Position numbers and translations under genes: made by a program. Under the pieces are notes generated by a model. It did not search any database. It was given only the letters and a program-made list of their open reading frames with translations, and was not told the DNA's origin. Shown in pieces: positions 36,480 to 39,778 of a DNA stretch of 64,000 bases. The DNA lies in assembly GCA_025356055.1 (NCBI GenBank), contig JANXUU010000128.1, positions 1 through 64,000 on the forward strand, written 5' to 3'. Position 1 is the stretch's first letter; each line of letters opens with the position of its first letter. The DNA comes from Sphingomonas sp. Its GTDB lineage: Bacteria > Pseudomonadota > Alphaproteobacteria > Sphingomonadales > Sphingomonadaceae.

Positions 36480-37583
36480 ATGAAGGCGACGATCGAGCGA
36501 GCAACCTTGTTGAAGAGCCTCGGCCACGTCCAGTCGGTCGTCGAGCGCCGCAACACCATCCCGATCCTGTCCAACGTCCTCATCGAGGCCGAAGAAGGGG
36601 GCAGCATACGCCTGATGGCGACCGACCTCGACCTCCAGGTCGATGAGCACGTCCCGGCGCAGGTCAGCCAGGCCGGCGCGACCACCGTCTCGGCGCACAC
36701 CTTCTTTGACATCGTCCGCAAGCTTCCCGAGGGGAGCCAGGTCGAGCTGTCGGCCGCCGATGGCAAGATGCAGGTCGTCGCCGGGCGTGCGCGCTTCAAC
36801 CTGTCGACCCTGCCGCGCGACGATTTCCCGGTCATCGCCGAGGGTGAGTTGCCGACGCGCTTCGAACTCCCCGCCGCAACGCTGCGCCAGATCATCGACA
36901 AGACCCGCTTCGCCATCTCGAGCGAAGAGACGCGCTATTACCTGATGGGCATCTTCCTCCACATCGCCGACGACCGACTCAAGGCCGCCGCGACCGACGG
37001 CCACCGCCTTGCGCGCGTGACCGTCGCCAAGCCCGACGGCGCCGACGGCATGCCCGACGTCATCATCCCCAAGAAGTGCGTCGCCGAGATCCGCAAGCTG
37101 CTCGACGAGGTCGAGGGCACGCTCGAAGTTTCGCTGTCGCCGACCAAGATCCGCTTCAACCTCGGCAACGCCGTCCTCACCTCGAAGCTGATCGACGGCA
37201 CCTTTCCCGATTACACCCGCGTTATCCCAACCGGCAACGACAAGCTCCTCAAGCTCGACCCCAGGAGCTTCGCCGCGGGGGTCGACCGCGTCTCGACCAT
37301 CGCCAGCGAGAAGACCCGCGCCGTCAAGATCGCGCTTGACCGCGACCGCGTCACGCTCTCGGTGACCAGCCCCGAGAACGGCCTCGCCACCGAGGAACTC
37401 GCCGCCGACTACACCAGCGATGGCATCGAGATCGGCTTCAACGCCCGCTACCTGCTCGACATTCTGGCCCAGATCGAGGGCGACACCGTCGAAGTGCACC
37501 TCGCCGACGCTGCCGCCCCCACCCTGTTGCGCGAAAACGACAAGAGCGACGCGCTCTACGTCATCATGCCAATGCGCGTGTGA
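36480..37583 (+). CDS. dnaN: DNA polymerase III subunit beta (sliding clamp)
   Basis: MKATIERATLLKSLGHVQSVVERRNTIPILSNVLIEA; C-terminal YVIMPMRV. Confidence 0.97.
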   Translation: MKATIERATLLKSLGHVQSVVERRNTIPILSNVLIEAEEGGSIRLMATDLDLQVDEHVPAQVSQAGATTVSAHTFFDIVRKLPEGSQVELSAADGKMQVVAGRARFNLSTLPRDDFPVIAEGELPTRFELPAATLRQIIDKTRFAISSEETRYYLMGIFLHIADDRLKAAATDGHRLARVTVAKPDGADGMPDVIIPKKCVAEIRKLLDEVEGTLEVSLSPTKIRFNLGNAVLTSKLIDGTFPDYTRVIPTGNDKLLKLDPRSFAAGVDRVSTIASEKTRAVKIALDRDRVTLSVTSPENGLATEELAADYTSDGIEIGFNARYLLDILAQIEGDTVEVHLADAAAPTLLRENDKSDALYVIMPMRV

Positions 37584-37587
37584 TCTT

Positions 37588-37618
37588 GCGAAAGGTAAGG
37601 AAAAGCCTTACCTTTCGC
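37588..37618. promoter_or_regulatory. Perfect 13-bp-arm inverted repeat GCGAAAGGTAAGG-AAAAG-CCTTACCTTTCGC between dnaN and antitoxin
   Basis: Arms 37588-37600 and 37606-37618, 5-nt loop, ends 2 nt before antitoxin ATG. Confidence 0.8.
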
Positions 37619-37620
37619 GA

Positions 37621-37827
37621 ATGATCCAGAGCCGCATCACCAGCAAGGCCCAGACCACTGTCCCGCGCGCCGTGCGCACTGCGCTTCGGCTCGGCGCGGG
37701 CGACGCGCTGGCGTGGGTGATCGAAGGGGACCGGGTGACCGTGTCGCTCGTTCGCGCCGAGCCGGCCGACTTTGCGTCCTTCGGCGAATGGTCCGATCCG
37801 CTCGACAGCGTCTACGACGATCTTTGA
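37621..37827 (+). CDS. AbrB/MazE-type antitoxin
   Basis: MIQSRITSKAQTTVPRAVRTALRLGAGDALAWVIEGDRVTV (swapped-hairpin AbrB fold). Confidence 0.85.
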   Translation: MIQSRITSKAQTTVPRAVRTALRLGAGDALAWVIEGDRVTVSLVRAEPADFASFGEWSDPLDSVYDDL

Positions 37828-38167
37828 CCCCGGCGACATCGTCCGCGTCTCCTTCCCGTATGTTGAGCGAGCGGTCATGGTCACGCGTCCCGCGCTCGTC
37901 GTCAGCGTTCGCGGCGTCGGGGCCAACGCCTCGCTGGCGTGGGTGCTGATGATTACCAACGCCGCGCGCGAGGCATGGCCTGGCGACATTCTCATCGACG
38001 ATTCGCTCGCCCTCGGCCTGATTATTCCGTCGAAGGTTCGGGTCGCAAAGATCAGCGCGATCGAAATCAGCAGTGCGACCAGGCTGGGCCGGCTTTCCGA
38101 TCAAGCCTTCGCTGCGGTTCGAGCCGAACTCGCGGCCACCCTCGGGCTCGATCTCCCACCAGCCTGA
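37820..38167 (+). CDS. PemK/MazF-type toxin; likely ATC start overlapping antitoxin stop (alternative TTG at 37772)
   Basis: FDPGDIVRVSFPYVERAVMVTRPALVVS...; no ATG/GTG near the conserved N-terminus. Confidence 0.8.
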   Translation: MFDPGDIVRVSFPYVERAVMVTRPALVVSVRGVGANASLAWVLMITNAAREAWPGDILIDDSLALGLIIPSKVRVAKISAIEISSATRLGRLSDQAFAAVRAELAATLGLDLPPA

Positions 38168-38170
38168 TTG

Positions 38171-38593
38171 TCAGCCCTTCCCCAACCTTTTCTTGTTGGC
38201 GGTCGCGGTCGCGTGGATCGGTCTTAGCGCGCGGACCCCGGTGGACAGCGCCCGAGTGCCGATCCGCTGCGACCGTGCCGCGATTGCCTGGGCCGCGCCC
38301 ATGCTGGGGGGCCGGCCACTCATCCACAGCGAGCCGAGCGCCTGCGCCTGCGCGAACATCTCGCTCTGCAGCTTGGTCCAGTCGCCCGCCAGGATCGCCC
38401 CCGATTTGGCGAAGGCGTTGCCCTTTTCAGCGACCATCATGTTGAGTTCGCGCGTGTCCGCCTTGAGCGGGTTGCGCGTTGCCTCGGCGATCGTCTCCGA
38501 GCGGCTGGCGATCACCGACTGCGACGCATCGAGCGTCTCGCCGACCATTTGTCCGGCCTTCAGCATGTCATTCCAGAAAGAGAATATGTTCAT
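38171..38593 (-). CDS. Phasin-like family protein
   Basis: MNIFSFWNDMLKAGQMVGETLDASQSVIASRSETIAEATRNPLKADTRELNMMVAEKGNAF. Confidence 0.55.
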   Translation of the reverse strand: MNIFSFWNDMLKAGQMVGETLDASQSVIASRSETIAEATRNPLKADTRELNMMVAEKGNAFAKSGAILAGDWTKLQSEMFAQAQALGSLWMSGRPPSMGAAQAIAARSQRIGTRALSTGVRALRPIHATATANKKRLGKG

Positions 38594-38716
38594 CGATCAG
38601 CCCTTTTCGCGAGCAGGCCTAGGCGCTCTCACCCGGTTCAACCAGCAGCATGACGCATCGGGTCCCGGCAATTCGCGCCCCGCTTGTGCCATCTGGGCGC
38701 TGCGCTAGGACGAAGC

Positions 38717-39778
38717 GTGCCGATCGTTCGCCTGACCCTGACCGATTTTCGTTCCTACGGCGAAGCGACGATTGCGCCGGGGGCAGGCTTCGTCGTCCTG
38801 ACCGGCGACAACGGCGTGGGCAAGACCAACATTCTCGAGGCGGTGTCGTTGCTCGCTCCGGGCCGGGGCCTGCGCGCGTCACCGCTTGGCGAAATGGCGC
38901 GTGGCGACGGGCCCGGCGGCTTCGGGATCGCCGCCCGAATTGCGGGAGAGACCAATCTTTCAACCGGCACGCTGGCGGCGGCACCGGAGCGGCGGCAGGT
39001 GCGGATCAACGGCGCGGCCGCGTCGGTCAACGCGCTTGGCGAATGGCTGTCGGTGCTCTGGCTGACCCCGGCGATGGACCGGCTGTTTGCGGCCAGCGCG
39101 GGGGACCGGCGGCGGTTCCTCGACCGGCTGGTGCTGGCGCTCGAGCCAGGCCACGCCAGCCACGCCGCGCGCTATGAAGCGGCGATGCGCGCCCGCAACA
39201 AGCTGCTTGCCGAGCCGGACAGCGCAGATCCGGCGTGGCTCGCGGCGCTCGAGGCGGGCATGGCCGACCATGGCGCCGCGCTCGCCGAGGCCCGCGCGCG
39301 AACCGTCGAGGCGCTTGGCGAGGCGATTGCCTCCGCGCCCGCAACCGACTTCCCGCGCGCTGCCCTGTCGCTGGAGGGAGGACCTGCGGGAGACCTGGCT
39401 ATTCGGCTGCGCGCCAATCGCGGCCGGGACGCCGCCGCCGGGCGGGCGACCGAGGGACCGCATCGACAGGATCTGTCGGTGCTGCATGTCACCAAGGGAC
39501 AGCCGGCAGCACGCGCTTCCACCGGCGAGCAGAAAGCACTCCTCCTTGGCCTCGTCCTGGCCCATGCCGAACTGGTCACGGAGCGGCGCGGGACGGCGCC
39601 GATCCTGCTGCTCGACGAGGTCGCCGCCCACCTCGATCCGGCGCGGCGCGCGGCGCTGTTCGGGCGGCTCGAGGGGCGCAGCCAAGTGTGGATGACGGGC
39701 ACCGAACCGGCGCTGTTCGAGGCAATCGGGACGGCCTCCCGGTTCACCATCTTCGACGGCGAGATCATCCCCATTTGA
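38717..39778 (+). CDS. recF: DNA replication/repair protein RecF
   Basis: GTG start; [46 protein letters not shown]. Confidence 0.93.

Follow-up and report, generated by a model that had tools for sequence, protein, structure and literature searches.

Toxin–antitoxin (TA) systems need less toxin than antitoxin, and the means by which this ratio is set is a question for many of them. The 64-kb stretch of Sphingomonas DNA analysed here (hereafter, the window) carries a gene pair directly downstream of dnaN in which, as the first-pass annotation of this DNA pointed out and our analysis bears out, no ATG, GTG or TTG lies near the conserved beginning of the toxin. From which codon, if any, is such a toxin translated, and is the missing start a defect or a device? 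The abstracts and passages of the open-licence literature that we searched contained neither a paper on a dnaN-linked TA module nor one on a TA toxin that begins at any codon besides AUG, GUG and UUG.

Architecture of the module

The module occupies positions 37621–38167; these coordinates and the codons first assigned to it proved exact on re-reading the sequence. It follows dnaN, the gene for the DNA polymerase III beta clamp (36480–37583, forward strand; TIGR00663, E = 1.1e-90). The antitoxin gene (37621–37827, forward strand) runs from ATG 37621 to TGA 37825–37827 and encodes a 68-residue PrlF/MazE (AbrB-type) protein with the C terminus SVYDDL. The protein matches Pfam MazE_antitoxin (PF04014) at 26.4 bits against a cut-off of 24.7 (E = 6.9e-6), scores below the cut-offs of PrlF (PF15937; 28.7 bits against 32, E = 1.5e-6) and NF007429 (33.5 bits against 125), and is 49–62% identical to other dnaN-linked antitoxins. 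The toxin frame reads TCT ACG ACG ATC TTT GAC CCC GGC GAC ATC GTC at its beginning and ends at TGA 38165–38167. Read from the ATC at 37820–37822, the proposed start codon, it would encode a 115-residue protein (37820–38167, forward strand; M-F-D-P-G-D-I-V...) that matches PemK_toxin (PF02452) at 47.2 bits against a gathering score of 23.1 (E = 3e-12). An AlphaFold model of this protein has a pLDDT of 90.9, and its PDB matches, among those listed, are MazF-family throughout. Bacillus subtilis MazF/EndoA and Mycobacterium tuberculosis MazF-mt1 share the toxin fold (Foldseek E ~5e-6, TM 0.72–0.77) and match the window toxin by sequence profile (E = 3e-4) at roughly 20–25% identity. Residues R25 and T48 (numbered from ACG 37814) are invariant in 15 aligned toxins; from their role in B. 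subtilis MazF, we take them to be catalytic-type residues, and RNase activity is predicted for the toxin. The two genes are small, adjacent, overlapping and conserved together, which is the layout of a type II TA operon. By profile and fold, the module is a chromosomal type II TA system that pairs a PrlF/MazE-like antitoxin with a MazF-family toxin, and its initial description as MazEF-like holds.

Between dnaN and the antitoxin gene lies a perfect inverted repeat, GCGAAAGGTAAGG-AAAAG-CCTTACCTTTCGC (37588–37618), with 13-nt arms that are 100% complementary. It is unique in the genome, with 0 expected in shuffles of the window. A GTAAGGAnnnTCCTTAC-type palindrome sits just upstream of most related antitoxins, including that of the window, and is absent where the module is absent (locus L057). 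The inverted repeat is thus a probable operator for autoregulation. Palindromes of this type precede the antitoxin in loci L014–L046 and L139–L143, sometimes in two copies. On the other side of the module, a phasin-like gene (PhaP6-related; 38171–38593, reverse strand; NF045536, E = 1.1e-19, below cut-off) separates the toxin from recF (38717–39778, forward strand; TIGR00611, E = 9.3e-68). The first-pass annotation did not mention this gene, and it overlooked both ACG codons (37814 and 37817) as well as a CTT TGA C that resembles the prfB site, discussed below.

Toxins that lack a nearby canonical start

Relatives of the module occur widely among Alphaproteobacteria, both chromosomal and plasmid-borne, and are labelled in RefSeq as PrlF antitoxin and PemK/MazF toxin. 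A first scan of genome contigs with a single sequence gave no match, and searches of viral contigs (one relative, L098/L144), plasmids and phages found distant relatives only. Two start types dominate: an ATG nested in a Tyr codon of the antitoxin (14-nt overlap) and a GTG (11-nt overlap). Apart from the start-less loci described below, every intact relative whose antitoxin was located has a nearby canonical start, most often the nested ATG. A Rhodospirillales relative (L030, 4001–4020) has ACG at the usual ATG register, but an ATG six codons upstream. Counting 82 relatives with an adjacent antitoxin, with two frameshifted pseudogenes left out, 78 have a canonical toxin start at most 40 nt away from the antitoxin stop, which makes its absence in the window more than a matter of chance. 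Only the window and loci L100, L102 and L103, every one dnaN-linked, depart from this rule. Two more, L142 and L143, were found after this count and stand outside its four exceptions, giving six loci in three genera without a canonical start in that 40-nt range; we denote these loci start-less. The PrlF–PemK/MazF modules of Bradyrhizobium, Bosea, Azospirillum and Roseomonas plasmids have the same two families and gene order, likewise with a GTAAGGA palindrome upstream and a toxin start nested in the last antitoxin codons. They start with ATG or GTG, however, whereas none of the six dnaN-linked loci has a canonical start and all have ATC at an 8-nt overlap.

These five further loci make it very unlikely that an ATG in the window is hidden by a sequencing error, because they come from other assemblies and are also start-less; we therefore rejected a single-genome error or a recent mutation in the window. 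The genomes of L100 and L103 are single-contig and 100% complete. In a survey of 36 genome triplets, start-codon switches to codons besides AUG, GUG and UUG were extremely rare (PMC5622118), which makes a start-less state common to six loci unusual. In the tree, the window, L100, L142 and L102 form one start-less group, joined with the ATG-started loci L022 (Sphingomonas rubra) and L145 (support 100), and L103 and L143 form a second (support 96); inner nodes are weak. The canonical start would accordingly have been lost at least twice, or lost once and regained.

The window does contain one canonical codon upstream in the toxin frame: within the open stretch before the ACG codons (37739–37813), TTG 37772–37774 is the only one, 16 residues before ATC, as originally noted. 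Being canonical and in frame, it could be the window's real start. It is not conserved, however, and is present in the window alone; in L100, L103, L142 and L143 the upstream toxin frame is free of ATG, GTG and TTG throughout, and L102 has two TTGs further upstream and otherwise no canonical start. Its use would also extend the overlap with the antitoxin to 56 nt, against 14 or 11 nt in most relatives. We therefore consider a start at this TTG highly improbable.

Conservation of the ATC codon

The first-pass annotation had asked how orthologous starts compare, and the six loci give a consistent picture. At one register, ATC TTT is invariant in all six, and the 8-nt overlap between the toxin start and the antitoxin stop (37820–37827), described earlier as ATCTTTGA in the window, recurs as ATCTTTGA or ATCTTTAG in 6/6. 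The two codons before ATC differ: ACG ACG in the window (37814–37819), L100 and L142, and TCG ACA (two loci) or TCC GAG (one locus) in L102, L103 and L143. ATC is thus the only near-cognate start that the six share. It occurs at this register in 9 of 74 other relatives, and the two remaining dnaN-linked loci, L022 and L145, which have an ATG two codons upstream, carry CAC and GTC in its place.

Initiation at ACG 37814 or 37817 has a simple appeal. The first of these codons stands in the exact register of the nested ATG found in most relatives, with the conserved 14-nt overlap, and is one synonymous Tyr change (TAT to TAC) away from it; L100 and L142 also carry the pair. A TAT-to-TAC change that left ACG as the start fits the window but was rejected for L102, L103 and L143, so half of the group would be left unexplained. 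ACG also mismatches the initiator anticodon at its middle position. We judge initiation at ACG to be improbable.

The ATC codon overlaps antitoxin codons. Because the antitoxin ends in Asp/Asn-Leu-stop, ATC forms only when the Asp or Asn codon ends in T. It does so in 6/6 start-less loci, compared with 10/41 others (Fisher p = 7.5e-4, a guide only, because the test was chosen after the pattern had been seen and the six loci share ancestry); GAT makes up 25% of Asp codons in the host genes of the window that were counted. Of the 20 antitoxin positions at which all six loci agree in residue (counting Asp/Asn as agreement), four also agree in the third base. Their codons are AAG, TTC, GAT/AAT and CTT, of which only GAT/AAT and CTT have a base that is rare in the host, and these two together spell ATC TTT. 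Elsewhere in the six loci, synonymous divergence is near saturation. By these comparisons, the bases building ATC are conserved beyond the need of the antitoxin protein. Against a start-codon reading of this pattern, ATC TTT follows in part from the antitoxin end itself, and the six loci are not phylogenetically independent. Since one synonymous change removes the ATG, drift could account for any single lineage.

The same junction invites an explanation in which the toxin would require no initiation codon of its own. Relative to the antitoxin, the toxin lies in the +1 frame, and the window carries CTT TGA C (37822–37828), which we take to be the prfB heptamer; a +1 ribosomal frameshift there would yield an antitoxin–toxin fusion. 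CTT is the final sense codon of the antitoxin in 6/6 start-less loci, compared with 42/74 others. The likeness to the +1 site of prfB (release factor 2), with the same CTTTGAC at the junction and the same frame relation, ends there: the Shine–Dalgarno-like stimulator 3 nt before CTT is absent in 6/6 loci, and the stop and the following base vary, with C after the stop in just two of the six and TAG rather than TGA in L103. Frameshifting leaves the conserved T before CTT unexplained, and in such a fusion the attached antitoxin would presumably keep the toxin inactive. On this evidence, we regard frameshifting as unlikely.

Integrity of the start-less toxins

A missing start could also mean that the toxin has been silenced, the start having been lost as the toxin was no longer wanted, with the antitoxin or the operator as what is retained. 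The absence of a canonical start, the patchy retention of the module (2 of 71 congeners) and the presence of frameshifted relatives elsewhere (L090 and L113) would all fit. However, all six start-less toxins are full length, with no internal stop, and their pN/pS values (0.38–0.71 at dS of ~1–2.7, where measurable) resemble those of ATG-started relatives (0.33–0.74). The first 22 toxin codons from F4 mostly show stronger conservation, and aligning two ATG-started with four start-less toxins shows F4, G7, V10, F14 and P15 to be unchanged throughout. By these sequence measures, the start-less toxins are under purifying selection from codon 4 onward. Start loss, moreover, is seen in both start-less groups of the tree, and ATC accompanies it in each. 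Silencing seems to us an improbable explanation. Genuine decay takes another form: L090 and L113 hold toxin pseudogenes with frameshifts beside intact-looking antitoxins, and both retain ATG.

In the toxin model, strand 1 starts at residue 6, counting from the AUC codon. Together with the conserved N-terminal residues, this implies that translation must begin at or before codon 4, in a stretch devoid of canonical codons. A start further downstream was rejected, the first canonical codons there, ATG at codon 22 in the window and GTG at codon 24 in L143, lying past the conserved first strand.

A model of termination-coupled initiation at AUC

We consider weak, termination-coupled initiation at AUC 37820 to be the best explanation and think it somewhat more probable than its negation. 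The AUC begins five bases before the antitoxin stop codon. Ribosomes that end antitoxin synthesis would re-initiate there with low efficiency and translate the toxin from this codon, and IF3 would limit the event as it does at other non-canonical starts. With such inefficient, coupled re-initiation, toxin output would be small and confined to moments just after antitoxin synthesis, so that low, strictly coupled synthesis could serve as a safety device, as had been suggested at the outset. An AGG-type Shine–Dalgarno match lies ~9 nt before ATC in L102 and L143; the window, L100 and L142 have no good match, so these three would depend on coupling. Folding z-scores at the junction range from -1.7 to +1.7, with no common pattern of RNA structure. 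The original placement of the start at ATC 37820 is supported in part, in that this is the sole near-cognate codon shared by the six loci and its bases are conserved; that ribosomes use it we infer, together with termination–reinitiation coupling, IF3 control and autoregulation. The comparisons suggest that AUC is used, probably as a means of limiting the toxin and linking its synthesis to that of the antidote.

Non-canonical starts of this kind have precedents. In Streptomyces, sigR has a GTC start that is repressed by IF3 and is required to hold SigR below its antagonist, and the start codon of infC is given as ATT in Escherichia coli and ATC in Streptomyces (PMC5472188). The likeness of sigR–rsrA and infC to the TA module lies in a protein, harmful in excess, that is kept scarce through a non-canonical start (PMC5472188); sigR–rsrA differs in that it is not a TA pair and in that sigR comes first within its pair and has an extensive ribosome binding site. 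In one in vitro study, AUC read by mismatched anticodons, not the natural CAU, reinitiated very poorly (PMC10158994).

If initiation at AUC is true, a toxin with AUC as its only shared start, retained across genera, would place start-codon choice and IF3 among the known controls of the toxin–antitoxin ratio, and this reading offers a clean one-codon experiment. The start-less loci also suggest that automatic annotation, in seeking ATG, GTG or TTG, can miss or mis-start intact toxins. A broader proposal is that a dnaN-side TA family swapped its toxin AUG for a conserved AUC, such that synthesis hangs on antitoxin termination and the level of IF3, as a safety catch selected within the dnaN–recF string and as a class of toxins overlooked by standard gene finders. 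We advance this proposal tentatively, with more doubt than conviction.

The module in the dnaN–recF interval

Eight dnaN–antitoxin–toxin–recF loci, in at least four Sphingomonadaceae genera, suggest that a toxin pair can live inside this gene string. Each of the six start-less loci lies directly after dnaN and before recF, and toxins located elsewhere, among the relatives examined, were never start-less. In L100, L103, L142 and L143, the toxin almost abuts recF. The first-pass annotation had described the module as inserted between dnaN and recF. Most congeners indeed lack it: it is present in 2 of 71 species of the genus, the second copy sitting elsewhere, and in the congener L057 the phasin-like gene begins ~10 nt after dnaN, an empty site. 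A single recent insertion does not fit, because at least four genera have the module next to dnaN. We speculate that read-through from dnaN, raising toxin mRNA despite autoregulation, could favour a weak start; as a counterpoint, L022 and L145 are dnaN-linked yet ATG-started.

The interval between dnaN and recF (37584–38716 in the window; compared across L048–L076) varies strongly, from a direct junction through a phasin-like gene or other genes to a distant recF. The phasin-like gene (PhaP6-related, below the NCBIfam cut-off) lies antisense near recF in the window, L057, L060, L069 and L071. One draft genome (G1407) carries two different dnaN–antitoxin–toxin–recF loci (L151 and L152, on contigs C52 and C71) and therefore probably mixes two strains.
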